A stretch of 64,000 bases of DNA from Bacteroidota bacterium (GTDB lineage Bacteria > Bacteroidota > Bacteroidia > AKYH767-A > JAHEYN01), in contig JAHEYN010000016.1 in assembly GCA_023251555.1 (NCBI GenBank), positions 1 to 64,000 on the forward strand. Reading direction: 5' to 3'. The translations under genes were made by a program, and so were the position numbers. Each line of letters begins with the position of its first letter. The first letter of the stretch is position 1. Positions 2 to 53,840 of this stretch are shown piece by piece. Under the pieces are notes generated by a model, which saw only the letters and a list, made by a program, of their open reading frames with translations, had not been told where the DNA came from and made no database searches.

Positions 2-139
2 ATTACCCTGCTGCTCGGAGGTATCCAGATGATTATGCTCGGAATCATCGGAGAATATCTCTGGCGCAACCTCGACGAAACACGTAAGCGCCCCCTTTAT
101 TTCGTGGAAGCCGACTCCTCTGCAGAAGAGAAAAGATAA
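2..139 (+). CDS. C-terminal fragment of a GT2 family glycosyltransferase (5' end outside window)
   Basis: The reading frame is open from the first base and ends with TAA at 137-139, giving 46 residues. It has a hydrophobic stretch ([20 protein letters not shown]) followed by a [16 protein letters not shown]-like segment. That ending is typical of membrane-anchored GT2 enzymes of the GtrB/ArnC/DPM1-like type, which move a sugar onto a polyprenyl phosphate at the cytoplasmic membrane; the fragment would be the end of the last membrane helix and the cytosolic tail. The catalytic domain lies outside the window, so the substrate cannot be judged. The next gene starts 4 bases downstream, which suggests co-transcription. 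Confidence 0.75.
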
Positions 140-143
140 CCCT

Positions 144-614
144 TTGCCCGCAGCACTAAAAATAAACCGGACTACTCTCTTTATCACGGGAGTGTGCCTG
201 GCGGCTTTCTTTTTTCTCTTCAACCGGCTTGACTTTATCACAGAAGGAATGATCACAGAAGGAAAGGTTACAGGCATCATTTTACAGGGTTCAAAAATTA
301 TTCCTCTTATCTCGTATAGCGCCGGTAATACTAAATTCTCCATCAGCGAAGAAACCAATCTTACCCTGGAGCCGGGCGAACATATAAAAATAATATACCG
401 CAAAAGCTGTCCTGAAGATGCAAGGGTATATTCATTCTTCGGCTTCTGGTTTCCCGTCCTGGCCTGGCTGATAGCCCCTGTCATGTTACTCGGAGCAGCA
501 CTTTTTTCTTTCATTGATGAAAACCAGAAAATTGTAATACGATTCGGAAAAAAAAGAAAAACGCAGGAGTACCGGGAACTCGAAGGAAAAGACAACAGGG
601 ACAGCGCTTTGTAA
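144..614 (+). CDS. DUF3592-like small membrane protein
   Basis: A 156-residue protein read from a TTG codon 4 bases after the glycosyltransferase stop. There are two hydrophobic helices, about residues 10-28 and 100-124. Between them is a soluble part with beta-strand character that contains a GEHIKIIYRKSCPEDARVYSFF segment, resembling the Gd-v-v-yyP-nP--A motif of DUF3592. The C-terminal 30 residues are strongly basic. DUF3592 proteins have no settled function. The close spacing behind a polyprenyl-linked glycosyltransferase suggests the same transcript, but no role can be inferred. The family assignment is by motif only. Confidence 0.6.
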   Translation: MPAALKINRTTLFITGVCLAAFFFLFNRLDFITEGMITEGKVTGIILQGSKIIPLISYSAGNTKFSISEETNLTLEPGEHIKIIYRKSCPEDARVYSFFGFWFPVLAWLIAPVMLLGAALFSFIDENQKIVIRFGKKRKTQEYRELEGKDNRDSAL

Positions 615-47041: not shown

Positions 47042-50000
47042 TTACTCTTTCACAAATTTTAACTGTCGCTGTTTCACGCCATCGTTCACCACAAGGAAAT
47101 ACAACCCCTGTGGCAGATCCGAGATATCAAAAATCAAATTGTTTTTCCCGGCGGAAAGCTTTCTTCCCATACTCATCACCGTTTCTCCCATCATATCAAC
47201 AACAGAAGCAACCACTGTGGTGTTCTGGTCCGGCGAAACAATGCAGTTAAGCTGTTTCCCCGAAGGGTTCGGAAATATGGTAAGGGCATAAGGGAATACC
47301 GGGATATCAACGCTCACCGTTTTTGAATAAGTATACTTGCCATCAAAGTCAACCTGCTTAAGGCGGTAATAATTTATCCCGGGAGAAGGGTGCTCATCGG
47401 TAAAAGAATAATGTTGCTTCGCAGTCGAGTTTCCCGCTCCCTGAACTACTCCGGAATGGGTGAACGCATTACCGTCAATGCTGTGTTCAACCACAAAGTA
47501 ATCATTGTATGTTTCGCTGCCCGTTATCCAGTTGCATGCAACCTGGTTATCAGGAAGAAGTGAGGCGGTGAAGTCAAGCAGTTCCATCGGAAGAACTATC
47601 TGGCATACAATATTTGGTGTTGCGGCGACAAGGCCTGCACTTATGGTATTGGTGTTCGTATTGGTCCTGAAACTCCCGGATCCCCCGGTCATCAGATTCA
47701 TCTGTAAAGTGCCGACGTTGATGCTAACGGACTGAAAATTACATGCATTAACACCTGTTTCGCCCACTTCATTGGTTTTAACAAACCAGATATCCAACCC
47801 TCCTCCTCCGGAGCTTTTTGTATATCCTGTAAAGGCATAGCCCCCGTCAGAAGTCTGCAACACCCTTAATGCCCTGTCTTCAAGAGCGCCTCCATATATC
47901 TTGCTCCACTGTACATTGCCCGCGGCATCAATTTTAATTAACATGGCATCATTATAAAATCCAAAGCCGCCGGGGGGGCGCCCATAGCCTGATATGATAT
48001 AACCTCCGTCTGCCGTGGGACATAAAGAGGTACCATACTGGCTATTTGTTGTTCCATAAGTTTTATTCCATTGCAATATGCCGTCGCTGCTGACTTTTAC
48101 CAGCAGCAGATCGTTATAACTAACATTGTTATTACTTCCCGCGGGTGGCAGTGGTGTGTAGCCTGAAGCACTTCCTAAAACCAAAAACCCCCCGTCAGAG
48201 GTCACACGTAGTTCGTGGGGTTCAGAAGATGAGTACGGCAGAGTGTTACCATATGCCTTTCCCCATTGAAAAGTTCCGGCACTGTTTGCTTTTGCAAGAT
48301 AAAAGCTATTAAGAAAACCCGGGCCAATGGGGTTAGGAAATACGCCTCCTGAAGCAGCTGTTATAAATCCCCCGTCGCAGGTTTGCTGAACAGAATAACC
48401 TATACCACCACCTCCACCGTACATTGCGCCCCACTGAAGCGTTCCGTCAGTTGCTGTTTTGAGCAGATATGTCGAGATATTTGTGGCACTACTATTGCTT
48501 GCGCCACCGGTAAAAAGATAACCGCCGTCTGAGGCAGTCGTTCCAAAAATGGGATTCCAAACCGATGTTCCGCTGCCTTCGCCGGCATTGGTTAGTCCAT
48601 AGCTTTTACACCACACCATGGTTCCCACCGTATTGAATTTGGAGAAAAACATATCCCATTGTGTGTTTGTGTTGCTTGTGGTTTCCCCTGCAATTACATA
48701 TCCGTCGGGCGTGGTCATCACTCCTCTCCCTTCTTCCGCAAAGTTTCCTACACCTCCGAATCGGTTGCTCCACTGTACAAGTCCGCCCGCATCAATTTTA
48801 AACATCCAGCCCTGTTCTTTTGAAATGCAAGGGACACAATCGCTATTAAAGCGGCCATTAATAATGTATCCGCCATCAAGAGCTATATCAAAAGACAGCC
48901 CATCCTCATCGGCAGTAGTTCCATAAGTTGCCTGGTACTGTAAAGGAATGCTGGCAGTTGCAACAATAGTTCTGTCGCCCGCAGGAGAGGTGGGCGTCGG
49001 TGTGTGTGCCAGCCCCTGCAAGGTGAGCGAAGTGCACTGTGCATCCACCTTATCACCAGGGGTAGCACTCCCTGAGATCGTATAGGTAAGCCAGAAATAA
49101 TATTTCCCCGGTGCAAGCGGAACAGAGCCCGTAAATGAAAAGGACCCATTGGGAGCCATTACTGTACTCCCGTACTGGGTGGAGGCCGTAAAGGTCATGC
49201 TGGTACCCGTGTACCACAGGCTTGCGCTGGCTATATCATTAAGCGCATTGGTAGACCCTGTTGTATTAAAGGTGAAGCTGGTTGCCGATAATGTATTTGC
49301 TGCTATTGTTACTTCAACTCCCACTATGAGCTGGTTGGCCGCAGACACTCCAACCACTCCTGTGTTGGGCTGGGTAGTAACTGCAGATGTGAATCCGTCG
49401 GAGATGGGCCTTGATCCCGCAGGGGATGTGCTTGTTGGTGTTCTTGACGATCCCCCTGCAATAAGTGATGTGCATTGTGCATCTATAACATTTCCGACTA
49501 CTGCCGTGGGAGATATGTCATAGGTAATCCAGAAGTAATTCGTACCCGGGGCAAGGGTAAATGTAAATCCGCTGAAAGTAAAAGGAGTTCCGCTGGCAGG
49601 AGGGGACGCTATTGTTGTGCCAAGCTGGGTGGTGGCCGCAAAGTTGCACCCGCTGCGTGTAGTCCAGAGTTTAGCATTGCTGATATCCGTCACGCTTGTG
49701 GTTCCGGTGGTCTGGAATGTAAAACTGGTGGCGGTAATAGGAGAAGCCCCCCCGGTGCCGTTTACGATTTCCACACCTATCACCTGCTGATTAGCAGATC
49801 CCTGGTAGACTACCGATGTATTGCTTTGAGTGGTGGTACAGGAGGTATATGCCATAGCTGCCGAAGTGGCAATATTCACCTGGTAATCTTCCGCCTCCCC
49901 GTACCAGCATTTATCGGATACCGGAGCGCCGATAGAAGTGGCTCCGTCATCGTAGTCCATGGTAATCCTCAGATTTTTCCACCCCGTAGCAGATGCCGAG

Positions 50001-51823
50001 GCGGTAAAATTCACCACGCTGGTATAGGATGTTCCCAGCCCGGGTGATAATGCAGAAGTACCAAGCAGTTCCCCTGCGTCAAGAAAATCACCGTCACTGT
50101 TGTAATCAATCCATGCTCTTACCTTGACTCCCCACATATCATCATGGGTAAAGGATAATACGTATGCGGTACTCTGGGTAAGTTTTGTACCCTGGTTCGT
50201 AGTATCAACACATGCCCAAAGCTCATCCCCGAGAGATGTACGGTTGATAGTATTGAGCGTAACATTGGTAAGGCCAAAGTAATTGTAGAGCGTTTGAAGC
50301 AACTGAGGTCCCGCAGGCCGGGCGATACATACCGGGTACTGTGGCCCGGTGTTAAAGGCAACAATGGTTCTGTCGCCCGCAGGAGATGTGGGCGTTGGAG
50401 TGTGTGCCACTCCCTGCACAGTGAGCGAGGTGCACTGGGCATCTACCTTATCACCGGGGTTGCCGCTCCCTGAAATCGTATAGGTAAGCCAGAAATAATG
50501 GGTTCCTGCGGCAAGAGCCGTGGAGCCTGTGAATGAGAATGACCCGTTAGGGCCGGCAACTGCACTTCCGTACTGGGTAGTTGTGCCGAATGTAGAAGAG
50601 TTGCCCGTGTACCACAGGCTTGCGCTGGTTATATCAAGAGAGGCATTGGTAGAGCCGGTTGTGTTAAAGGTGAAGCTGGTTGCATTCAGGGAAGAGGCGG
50701 CTATTGTAACTTCCAGCCCGACAATTTGCTGATCCGTTGAAGGAGCACCTATTACAGCAACATAGGACTGGGTGGTAACTGCCGATGTAAACCCGTCGGA
50801 TATGGGCCTTGATCCCGCAGGAGCTGTTGTTGTCGGTGTTCTCGAAGATCCTCCCGCAATAAGTGATGTGCACTGTGCATCCATAACATTGCCGGATACT
50901 GCAGTAGGAGAAACGTCGTATGTAAGCCAGAAATAATTGGTACCGGAGGCAAGGGTAAAGGTGAACCCATTAATGGTGAATGGCGTGCCGCTGGCAGGAG
51001 GAGATGCCACAGTTCCCCCGAGCTGGGTTGCGGTTGCAAAGTTACAGCTGCTGGCCGTGGTCCAGAGTCTTGCGTTGCTGATATCCGTTACGTTCGTGGT
51101 TCCTGTGGTCTGGAATGTAAAGCTGGTGGCTGTGATAGGAGAAGCACCCCCCGTGCCCGCTACTATCTGGACACCTATCACCTCCTCGTTGGTGGAGCCC
51201 TGGTACACCGTGGAAGTATTGCTTTGGGTGGCTGTGCATGAGCTGTATGTCATGGCGGCAGAAGTGACAAGATTTACCTGGTAATCTTCCACCTCCCCGT
51301 ACCAGCATTTGTCGGACAGAGGGGCGCCGATTGAAGTAAATCCGTCATCATAATCCAGCACTACTCTCATATTTTTCCAACCGGTAGCAGATGCCGAGCT
51401 CGTAAAATTTATTACGTCAGTATAAGGCACTCCCAGCCCGGGGGACATTACAGAGGTTCCCAGCAACTCTCCCGCGTCAAGGAAATCTCCGTCATTGTTA
51501 TAATCAATCCAGGCTCTCACCTGTGAATTCCACAGGTCATCATGGGTAAAACTCAGAGAATATGCCGTGTTTTGCGTAAGCTTGCCGGACTGGTTCGTGG
51601 TATTTATATCAGCCCATATTTCATCCCCGAGAGATGTACGGTTAATATTTCCTATGGTGATATTTGTAGGCCCGAAGTAACACTGGTAGCATGGGGTTTG
51701 AAGCGACTGGGGGGCCTGAGGAGCCGTGATGCATACTACTGCATGGCTTTCCGGTATTGCTAAAGTAAAACAGCCGACCAGCAACAACGCTTTTCTCAAA
51801 ATGAGGGATTTGGGAGGGGTCAT
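47042..51823 (-). CDS. 1593-residue T9SS type A cargo with duplicated GEVED/BNR-associated modules
   Basis: Signal peptide to about residue 28. A module of about 460 residues is present twice in tandem (from about 30 and 498). Each copy has a GEVED domain (AWIDYN-DGDFLDAGELLG ending CWYGE-EDYQVN) and two BNR-associated N-terminal-like domains (SFTFQTTGTT, YFWLTYD, DAQCTSL). Then come propeller-like repeats (TSDGGY-F-G; about 965-1400) and a FVVEHSIDG linker with a T9SS type A domain like that of the adjacent gene. It is probably surface-displayed or secreted; GEVED domains accompany adhesins and peptidases, but no catalytic site is evident. Confidence 0.87.
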   Translation of the reverse strand: MTPPKSLILRKALLLVGCFTLAIPESHAVVCITAPQAPQSLQTPCYQCYFGPTNITIGNINRTSLGDEIWADINTTNQSGKLTQNTAYSLSFTHDDLWNSQVRAWIDYNNDGDFLDAGELLGTSVMSPGLGVPYTDVINFTSSASATGWKNMRVVLDYDDGFTSIGAPLSDKCWYGEVEDYQVNLVTSAAMTYSSCTATQSNTSTVYQGSTNEEVIGVQIVAGTGGASPITATSFTFQTTGTTNVTDISNARLWTTASSCNFATATQLGGTVASPPASGTPFTINGFTFTLASGTNYFWLTYDVSPTAVSGNVMDAQCTSLIAGGSSRTPTTTAPAGSRPISDGFTSAVTTQSYVAVIGAPSTDQQIVGLEVTIAASSLNATSFTFNTTGSTNASLDITSASLWYTGNSSTFGTTTQYGSAVAGPNGSFSFTGSTALAAGTHYFWLTYTISGSGNPGDKVDAQCTSLTVQGVAHTPTPTSPAGDRTIVAFNTGPQYPVCIARPAGPQLLQTLYNYFGLTNVTLNTINRTSLGDELWACVDTTNQGTKLTQSTAYVLSFTHDDMWGVKVRAWIDYNSDGDFLDAGELLGTSALSPGLGTSYTSVVNFTASASATGWKNLRITMDYDDGATSIGAPVSDKCWYGEAEDYQVNIATSAAMAYTSCTTTQSNTSVVYQGSANQQVIGVEIVNGTGGASPITATSFTFQTTGTTSVTDISNAKLWTTRSGCNFAATTQLGTTIASPPASGTPFTFSGFTFTLAPGTNYFWITYDISPTAVVGNVIDAQCTSLIAGGSSRTPTSTSPAGSRPISDGFTSAVTTQPNTGVVGVSAANQLIVGVEVTIAANTLSATSFTFNTTGSTNALNDIASASLWYTGTSMTFTASTQYGSTVMAPNGSFSFTGSVPLAPGKYYFWLTYTISGSATPGDKVDAQCTSLTLQGLAHTPTPTSPAGDRTIVATASIPLQYQATYGTTADEDGLSFDIALDGGYIINGRFNSDCVPCISKEQGWMFKIDAGGLVQWSNRFGGVGNFAEEGRGVMTTPDGYVIAGETTSNTNTQWDMFFSKFNTVGTMVWCKSYGLTNAGEGSGTSVWNPIFGTTASDGGYLFTGGASNSSATNISTYLLKTATDGTLQWGAMYGGGGGIGYSVQQTCDGGFITAASGGVFPNPIGPGFLNSFYLAKANSAGTFQWGKAYGNTLPYSSSEPHELRVTSDGGFLVLGSASGYTPLPPAGSNNNVSYNDLLLVKVSSDGILQWNKTYGTTNSQYGTSLCPTADGGYIISGYGRPPGGFGFYNDAMLIKIDAAGNVQWSKIYGGALEDRALRVLQTSDGGYAFTGYTKSSGGGGLDIWFVKTNEVGETGVNACNFQSVSINVGTLQMNLMTGGSGSFRTNTNTNTISAGLVAATPNIVCQIVLPMELLDFTASLLPDNQVACNWITGSETYNDYFVVEHSIDGNAFTHSGVVQGAGNSTAKQHYSFTDEHPSPGINYYRLKQVDFDGKYTYSKTVSVDIPVFPYALTIFPNPSGKQLNCIVSPDQNTTVVASVVDMMGETVMSMGRKLSAGKNNLIFDISDLPQGLYFLVVNDGVKQRQLKFVKE
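48959..51736 (-). repeat. Tandem intragenic duplication, two ~1.38-kb copies
   Basis: Copy 1 spans about 51736-50357 and copy 2 about 50332-48959, inside the 1593-residue protein gene. They start with VCITAPQAPQSLQT and VCIARPAGPQLLQT and end with SPAGDRTIVA. Similarity is evident at DNA level over long runs (e.g. around 50371-50440 against 48967-49040), so the duplication looks fairly recent. Confidence 0.85.
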
Positions 51824-52045
51824 TGTGTGGAGAGTTATTATTATTAATGTGGTGGCAAGTGCATATCTTCCAGATAAGGGAGAATTTGTTTTAAAAAAAT
51901 AAGGCGGAATTCCGATCCATCAATTCAAATATTAGATTCCTTGTAATAAATTACTGAGATCAAGTTTTGTTTATTAATCCTACGTTTTGTTTCCACTATA
52001 AAGTGAAAATATTGGAGGAAGTAAGTAATAACTAACTTAAAATTA

Positions 52046-52053
52046 TAATTTTG
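52046..52053 (+). promoter_or_regulatory. Upstream promoter box of the A+T-rich gene
   Basis: TAATTTTG, first of two identical boxes, about 100 bases before the ATG. A transcript from here would carry the second box and the central palindrome in its leader. Confidence 0.5.
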
Positions 52054-52134
52054 TACAAAGCCAAGTTCATTAAAACAATTATTTATTACTTCTATTTATT
52101 AGCTTTAAAAGCTATTATTCTTATGATTATAATT

Positions 52135-52142
52135 TAATTTTG
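52135..52142 (+). promoter_or_regulatory. Proximal promoter box of the A+T-rich gene
   Basis: TAATTTTG, 10 bases before the ATG at 52153, so the mRNA leader would be only a few bases long. Confidence 0.6.
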
Positions 52143-52152
52143 TACAAAGCAG

Positions 52153-53688
52153 ATGAAAAAACAAGATGATTTATTTGAACTGATTAAGTCCCTTTCAGTT
52201 TCCGAAAAAAGATATTTTAAATTATCGGTTTCTGTACAAAAGGGGGAAAAGAATTATTTAAAATTATTTGATGCAATTGACAAACAAGAGAAATATAACG
52301 AGCTGGAAATTAAAAAAGGATTTGCGGGCAATGTATTTATTAAACAACTTCATAGAACCAAATATTATTTATATAATCTTATTTTAAAGAGTTTAACTGC
52401 ATATTATTCTAGTTCATCGGTTGATTCAGAATTAAAGGAACTTTTACAGCAAGTGAAAACTCTCTTGGAGAAGGGCTTATATAAACAATGTGAGAAAATA
52501 ATATCAAAAACAAAGCTATTAGCTGAAAAATATGAAAAACATTTAGCATTGCTTGAGTTATCTGATTGGGAAATTAGATTAATGTATAGACAATCCTATA
52601 AAGGGAAAACAGCAAAAGAAATAGAAAGGTGCTACAAAGACACATTCAGTGAGGCAAACAAATATATTAACTATAAAGAATATGAACAGATTTCGGCAAG
52701 AATGTTTGTACGAACAAATAAAAAAGGATATTCAAGAACCAATACTGATTTATTAGCATATAAAAGTATTACTGATCATCCTTTGCTTCGTAGTGAAGAC
52801 AAAACAATCTCTTATCATTCATTATCTGTTTATTATACCATTTATTCTTCTTATTACCTTTTACAAAATGATTATACTATCGCATATTCCTATACTCAAA
52901 AAAAAGTGAAATTCATGGAGGCTCATCCTTACCAGATAGGAGAAAATATACAAAGCTATGTAACTGCATTAACCAATCTTATTCTTTGCCAACTTAATCT
53001 TAAGAAATACACCGAAGTGGTTTTGAGTCTAAAAAAACTCAAAGAAATAAATACAAAGTCCCAAAATATACAAAGTCGAATATTTTATACCGTTTATAAT
53101 TCAGAGTTAACAATGCATATTGATAAAGGAGAGTATACTCAGGGAATTAAGTTGATTCCATCTATTCAAAACGGACTTGGCAAAATGGGTTTTTCTAAAG
53201 AAGCAAATATGATTTTGTCTTATGGTATTTCCCAGGTTTATTTTGGTGCAGGTAATTATCAGGATGCGCTCATTTATTTAAACAAAATAATAAACGACAC
53301 AGGGATTAATATGAGAAGTGATGTGTATTGCATGGTAAAAATCATGTTATTAATTGTTCACTTTGAATTAGGAAATGAAGAATTACTGGAATACATGGAA
53401 AAATCTGTTCACCGCTATCTTGATAAAAACGAGCGTTTATATAGAGTAGAAACTTCTATTCTTGATTTTATGCGGAAAACGGTTCCCAAAATAATTACTC
53501 CACAAGAACGAATAAAAGCATTCAAGAAATTAAAAGCTGAAATAGAAGAAATCACACAAAACACTTATGAGAAGAAAGCTTTAGAGTATTTTGATTTTAT
53601 TTCCTGGCTTGAAAGCAAAATTGAAAAGCGCCCATTTGCAGTAATTGTGAAAGAGAAAGCCCGGTCACTTTCTCGTGCTACCCGCTAA
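52153..53688 (+). CDS. A+T-rich orphan gene for a 511-residue all-helical (TPR-like) protein
   Basis: Not a family I can name. The N-terminus (KKQDDLFELIKSLSVSEKRYFKL) is amphipathic and not a signal peptide, so the protein is probably cytoplasmic. The rest is predicted helical throughout, with paired helices like TPRs (SVYYTIYSSYYLLQNDYTIAY, GAGNYQDALIYLNKIIND) and very many Tyr, Lys and Ile. I recall similar-looking ~500-residue proteins in uncultured Bacteroidota, without a known role. Codon use is strongly A/T-ending: one 60-base line (52201-52260) has 16 G or C, against about half in the flanking genes. The gene is alone on its transcript with duplicated promoter boxes. Acquisition by transfer is likely; no mobile-element genes are adjacent. 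Confidence 0.8.
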   Translation: MKKQDDLFELIKSLSVSEKRYFKLSVSVQKGEKNYLKLFDAIDKQEKYNELEIKKGFAGNVFIKQLHRTKYYLYNLILKSLTAYYSSSSVDSELKELLQQVKTLLEKGLYKQCEKIISKTKLLAEKYEKHLALLELSDWEIRLMYRQSYKGKTAKEIERCYKDTFSEANKYINYKEYEQISARMFVRTNKKGYSRTNTDLLAYKSITDHPLLRSEDKTISYHSLSVYYTIYSSYYLLQNDYTIAYSYTQKKVKFMEAHPYQIGENIQSYVTALTNLILCQLNLKKYTEVVLSLKKLKEINTKSQNIQSRIFYTVYNSELTMHIDKGEYTQGIKLIPSIQNGLGKMGFSKEANMILSYGISQVYFGAGNYQDALIYLNKIINDTGINMRSDVYCMVKIMLLIVHFELGNEELLEYMEKSVHRYLDKNERLYRVETSILDFMRKTVPKIITPQERIKAFKKLKAEIEEITQNTYEKKALEYFDFISWLESKIEKRPFAVIVKEKARSLSRATR

Positions 53689-53840
53689 TCCCAGAGCACT
53701 TTCGCAAACCGGCGTTCTTCCGGGCTTACTTCCGGCCGGACGAAAAAATGAAGCTACCCGGATTTTCTTTTCATCCCATGCGCTCGCTCCCCATGCATAA
53801 CTTCGGATAATTTGTATTTTTATAAAAAAATTCTCCTCCC

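Follow-up and report, generated by a model that had tools for sequence, protein, structure and literature searches.

RusR-like genes paired head to head with type IX secretion cargo genes, many with a private direct-repeat pair, in one Bacteroidota genome

The gene for a 511-residue protein in the window (the whole 64,000-nucleotide stretch of Bacteroidota DNA that was analysed; Table 1) probably specifies a RusR-like transcription regulator of the one-component kind, which would serve only the T9SS cargo gene lying head to head with it and act through a private pair of repeats; this assignment is drawn from sequence comparison and predicted structure. The recurrence of the same arrangement across the genome suggests that each of about 34 family genes is a dedicated on/off switch for its own secreted-protein gene.

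Table 1. Features at the window locus and family members elsewhere in the genome
Feature	Position	Strand	Basis
RusR/BT2802-superfamily regulator-like gene, 511 aa, ATG start	52153..53688	+	ORF, NCBIfam profile, AlphaFold2, Foldseek
511-aa protein, N-terminal helical bundle	residues about 6-86		predicted model
511-aa protein, TPR-like helical solenoid	residues about 90-511		predicted model
Divergent partner: 1593-aa T9SS cargo protein, 4 BNR_assoc_N stretches, 2 GEVED domains, C-terminal Por_Secre_tail	47042..51823	-	domain search
A+T-rich divergent intergenic region, 329 bp, 26% G+C, common to both genes	51824..52152	.	
Distal copy of 16-bp direct repeat TAATTTTGTACAAAGC, putative operator; contains -7-like TAATTTTG and palindrome TTTGTACAAA	52046..52061	+	
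Proximal copy of TAATTTTGTACAAAGC, ending 2 bp before the regulator ATG	52135..52150	+	
Distant family member	C52:28742		
C-terminal regulator remnants, 59-68% identity	G000 C48:25512-25784, C9:80972-81094, C4:36679-36786, C21:257-352		

The open reading frame was found to be intact, and its product matches the NCBIfam profile NF058569 (BT2802, RusR ribose regulator) over the full length (E=1.1e-67; protein residues 1-498 on profile positions 1-501), scoring 229 bits, under the curated cut-off of 550 bits. BT2802 is the RusR protein of Bacteroides thetaiotaomicron. The first-pass annotation had reported no recognised domain, and had named a confident hit to a known family as evidence against its reading; the former holds for Pfam, in which nothing over threshold and no HTH was detected, but not for NCBIfam, where the full-length match is such a hit. 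Its description of the protein as all-helical agrees with the AlphaFold2 model, built from an 80-sequence alignment (mean pLDDT 93.1, pTM 0.89). A sequence search against solved structures gave no match to the protein, and Foldseek comparison of the model with the PDB returned the TPR superhelices of LGN, the quorum regulator NprR and Ctr9. The N-terminal bundle modelled alone (residues 1-96, pLDDT 83.7) also showed no HTH among its PDB matches (best E 6.2). This bundle is basic and conserved (K12, K19, R20, K23 and K70), and the mean net charge over residues 1-30 is +4.1. Since no HTH was found, the mode of DNA binding would be an undescribed one if the protein binds directly.

The immediate upstream gene was observed to be divergent at all 35 family members in this genome, with gaps of 35-494 bp. 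At least 33 of the 35 partners carry a T9SS C-terminal sorting tail, compared with 8 of 141 local control genes, namely the other genes in the same stretches (p=9e-26); the two partners with no tail in view are truncated, one at a contig end and the other where the stretch used stops, just within the tail. At the window locus the tail is a Por_Secre_tail match (PF18962, E=1.1e-9, residues 1516-1587), and mlaEF-like genes are the other neighbours; no ribose utilisation genes were found among them. The cargo gene, previously regarded as an ordinary flanking gene beside a single-gene unit, is instead the divergent partner in a pairing that recurs at every copy. The genome also encodes the type IX translocon (SprA_N match, 594 bits, C22:17643-19217) and contains at least 150 open reading frames with a T9SS tail, so that roughly one cargo gene in five has a paired regulator. 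SBBP beta-propellers occur in 11 of 35 paired and 3 of 21 unpaired cargo proteins, numbers too small to call a special domain content of the paired cargo. No description of T9SS cargo with a divergent cognate regulator was found in the titles and abstracts of the literature searched.

The 2.84-Mb genome contains 34 full-length family copies (the window copy counted), one distant relative and four remnants. The other full-length copies are 29-57% identical to the window copy, and three copies contain in-frame stops. The label of orphan gene is therefore not tenable, given some 34 related genes within this genome, a named-family match and further relatives across Bacteroidota. By comparison, 40 order relatives have 0-3 family members each, and among about 295 genomes across the phylum (best five candidates per genome scored, E<=1e-60) one other genome has seven copies and the rest have at most three among the matches listed. 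The family is absent at E<=1e-10 from the one same-family genome examined. These low counts in the order relatives and the phylum sample indicate that the expansion is lineage-specific among the genomes examined, and the paralogues have diverged too far from one another for it to have happened very recently. Tandem arrays in which regulator and cargo alternate were observed at L051, L054 and L062 (G000 C22, C9 and C10), so new cassettes may arise via tandem duplication. Separately, the C9 remnant directly adjoins the tail of the following cargo gene, which suggests that a cassette was deleted there or underwent recombination.

A census of homologues and their neighbours, which the first-pass annotation had proposed, revealed relatives phylum-wide with a largely constant layout and partners that vary in kind between genomes. 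In other genomes, 72 relatives had sufficient DNA upstream for the neighbour to be assessed, and 71 of these are divergent from it. The partners comprise 2-isopropylmalate synthase-type (LeuA) genes (29, many heading leucine operons), aconitase-C/LeuD-like genes (11), LeuC (3), FabH (2), LytTR regulators (3), M1 peptidases with a T9SS tail (4) and a cluster of T9SS cargo (15). Five of the seven copies in the second most expanded genome (G311) are divergent from T9SS cargo. A RusR homologue on a Parabacteroides plasmid, which passes the NF058569 cut-off with a score of 636 bits, is separated by a 228-bp divergent gap from rbsK (ribokinase)/nucleoside hydrolase genes. Family members in different parts of the phylum thus stand divergent from genes for leucine, fatty acids or ribose, and BT2802/RusR seems to be a single case within a wide and almost undescribed family of regulators.

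The two copies of TAATTTTGTACAAAGC upstream of the window gene are exact, lie 89 bp apart (p=0.007 or better against shuffles) and are the only exact copies in the genome. Both contain TAATTTTG, which fits TAnnTTTG, the -7 consensus of Bacteroidota. Thus, the earlier claim of a duplicated promoter is correct as to the duplicated, -7-like sequence, which is read here as a putative operator pair. In a direct-repeat test devised after the first few sequences had been seen, a repeat with its near copy at the regulator start was detected at p<0.05 in 13 of the 35 own-genome members (1.75 expected), the other 22 having no significant repeat, and in 22 of 76 relatives. The same test gave 0 of 25 for regions upstream of partner genes and 4 of 44 for other genes, two of these four being family members viewed from a neighbouring stretch. 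The spacing of the significant pairs was found to cluster at 65-68, 75-79 and 85-90 bp (phase test p=0.01 in this genome, 0.0005 in relatives), with a best-fit period in relatives of about 11.5-12 bp or more, which exceeds that of B-DNA. Almost without exception, the near copy adjoins the start codon or extends over it. TAnnTTTG elements are present in the -80 to -25 zone of 12 of 34 own members, against 2.6 in shuffles, indicating an operator-promoter-operator layout with the -7-like element between the two copies; in relatives they are not clearly enriched (9 of 78 against 5.4). The repeat sequences themselves vary from paralogue to paralogue. Two other operator designs were considered and rejected: one common to all paralogues, because the repeats differ and TAATTTTGTACAAAGC of the window occurs nowhere else in the genome, and palindromic operators, because inverted repeats in the own-genome intergenic regions are mostly no better than shuffles.

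Relatives paired with LeuA, LeuC or AcnC carry a distal non-coding TTACGATGTCTAA in 39 of 41 cases, always at 64-67, 76-77 or 89-91 bp from the other copy, within which the start codon lies. The motif was picked after viewing the sequences, making its p-values partly circular; the spacing was unselected. TTACGATGTCTAA is probably an undescribed control element of leucine biosynthesis. As a direct repeat it is conserved within the upstream 110 bp of LeuA-paired members from both Cytophagales and Bacteroidales (L133, L140, L147, L182 and others). In Saprospiraceae (L132, L135, L172), a ATGTCAGTTTTCTGA-like conserved element was also seen in the region separating a family member from a divergent LytTR gene. 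No such direct repeat was found upstream of the Parabacteroides RusR homologue.

Homology to an operon regulator, divergence from changing targets and phased repeats at the gene's own start together argue for a transcription regulator acting on its own gene and on the neighbouring one. It is likely the regulator itself that reads the repeats, through its basic N-terminal bundle. At the window locus it would bind the repeat ending at its own start codon and the one 89 bp upstream, two sites on roughly the same helical face that may be joined by looping. In many relatives the promoter of the regulator gene lies between the two sites, and binding there would limit synthesis of the protein. A cognate signal, either a small molecule or a peptide, may be bound by the TPR solenoid, and the divergent cargo gene would then be switched. 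Expansion to about 34 cassettes, each with its own repeat, would have produced many independent one-gene switches for surface and secreted proteins. The wider proposal is evenly balanced between holding and failing: that these are phylum-wide one-component regulators with no recognised DNA-binding domain, each reading private, helically phased repeats that span its own promoter, and that about 34 orthogonal regulator-cargo cassettes, one per secreted protein, exist here.

Base composition bears on another reading, built on the first-pass annotation, in which this is one gene with no described function and a foreign composition, recently acquired and unrelated to its neighbours. The composition is indeed sharply different: the G+C content of the gene is 0.299, compared with 0.508 and 0.464 in adjacent control stretches, and along the sequence it drops from about 0.49 to values of 0.20-0.33 over the interval from about 51850 to 53600, returning to 0.47-0.53 by 53600-53800. 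The low G+C is thus limited to the gene and its upstream region, so that only the regulator half of the cassette is A+T-rich here, and GC3 is mismatched with the divergent partner (0.25 vs 0.49). However, A+T-richness is common to most members of the gene's own subclade. Regulator and cargo GC3 are correlated over the own-genome pairs (rho 0.76, p=1e-7), whereas regulator and downstream-neighbour GC3 are not (rho 0.17), indicating that the pair is the evolutionary unit. A+T-richness is therefore the mark of a class of regulator-cargo cassettes and not of a lone foreign gene, and the window pair is an exception that suggests re-pairing. With some 34 paralogues, a full-length NF058569 match and the same type of neighbour at every copy, recent acquisition of an unrelated gene is most improbable. 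Origin as phage or plasmid cargo was rejected, the search having returned no phage match and three plasmid matches, all distant. What stands of the gene as a candidate for something undescribed is that it is compositionally unusual and little described; the orphan label and the single-gene unit both fall away.

Alternatively, the product might work in the cytosol on its cognate cargo, as a TPR chaperone or targeting factor, the divergent pair then being a co-inherited client-chaperone cassette. Such a role would suit the TPR-like solenoid, the strict one-to-one pairing in this genome and the GC3 shared by the two genes; it is nonetheless unlikely, because homologues elsewhere pair with cytosolic LeuA, LeuC, FabH, LytTR and ribokinase, for which a secretion chaperone would be needless, because quantised direct repeats are left unexplained, and because BT2802 is reported as a ribose operon regulator (PMC12596196). 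The repeats could also act in mRNA, with the protein or another factor binding RNA at the start codon to repress its own translation and the upstream copy serving as a second RNA site. The position of the proximal copy at or over the start codon in nearly all cases is what this predicts, but spacing quantised near one helical turn is expected of sites on double-stranded DNA, the enrichment of -7-like elements between the copies in own-genome members would often place the distal copy outside the transcript, and the conserved divergent neighbour is given no role; we consider action in mRNA improbable as well. Regulation of transcription through DNA sites is preferred over both.

What distinguishes these cassettes from known regulatory systems? 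RusR regulates the ribose operon BT2803-2809 in B. thetaiotaomicron (PMC12596196). The window protein resembles it in full-length homology, in a size of about 500 aa and in a divergent layout, as toward the ribose genes in the Parabacteroides homologue, but differs in 1) its score far under the profile cut-off, 2) a T9SS cargo partner instead of ribose genes, and 3) some 34 copies in one genome with private direct-repeat pairs. The RRNPP proteins (NprR, PlcR and Rap, TPR peptide sensors of Firmicutes) share the all-helical TPR-like solenoid, and their one-component, paralogue-rich, locus-specific logic would be similar; unlike them, the window protein has no recognised N-terminal HTH and no sequence match to solved structures, and a signal-peptide gene was not identified. 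Polysaccharide utilisation loci of Bacteroides employ one regulator per surface-protein locus (hybrid two-component or ECF sigma/anti-sigma), with dozens per genome. The one-to-one, expanded arrangement is alike, whereas the present family is a different one, lacks a membrane sensor and has a single T9SS cargo target instead of a SusC/D operon. LysR-type regulators likewise have a divergent, overlapping control region and conserved adjacency to their targets, but their fold is unrelated, and the putative operator here consists of two direct copies 65-90 bp apart, one of them at the start codon. As a homologue of a known regulator the gene is ordinary; what is unusual is the system, with roughly 34 cassettes in a single small genome and a visible, putative private operator pair at many of them. 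T9SS cargo genes can reach hundreds per Bacteroidota genome, and the control of each is largely open. A cassette-encoded regulator for about one-fifth of one genome's cargo, with predicted operator pairs for many, makes that control directly testable. The family may represent a new way of binding DNA, and private operators would serve as orthogonal switches in Bacteroidota genetics.

The divergent layout is less uniform among 20 further loci mapped, seven of which have a same-strand upstream gene, six of these seven being from order relatives; the exceptions in order relatives include capsule-type genes and a DinB gene. Single members in the window's order (L216, L217, L213 and L219) have capsule/exopolysaccharide genes (CpsB/CapC, Bac_transf) alongside, and the gene upstream is often on the same strand. 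A Parabacteroides distasonis plasmid record (L191, NZ_OY725755.1) carries a ribose-utilisation cluster and a RusR homologue with an integrase adjacent. Two metagenome contigs labelled Alphaproteobacteria (L145 and L159, records titled Thalassovita and Rickettsiales) contain Bacteroidota-type members together with leucine genes, and are probably mislabelled bins.
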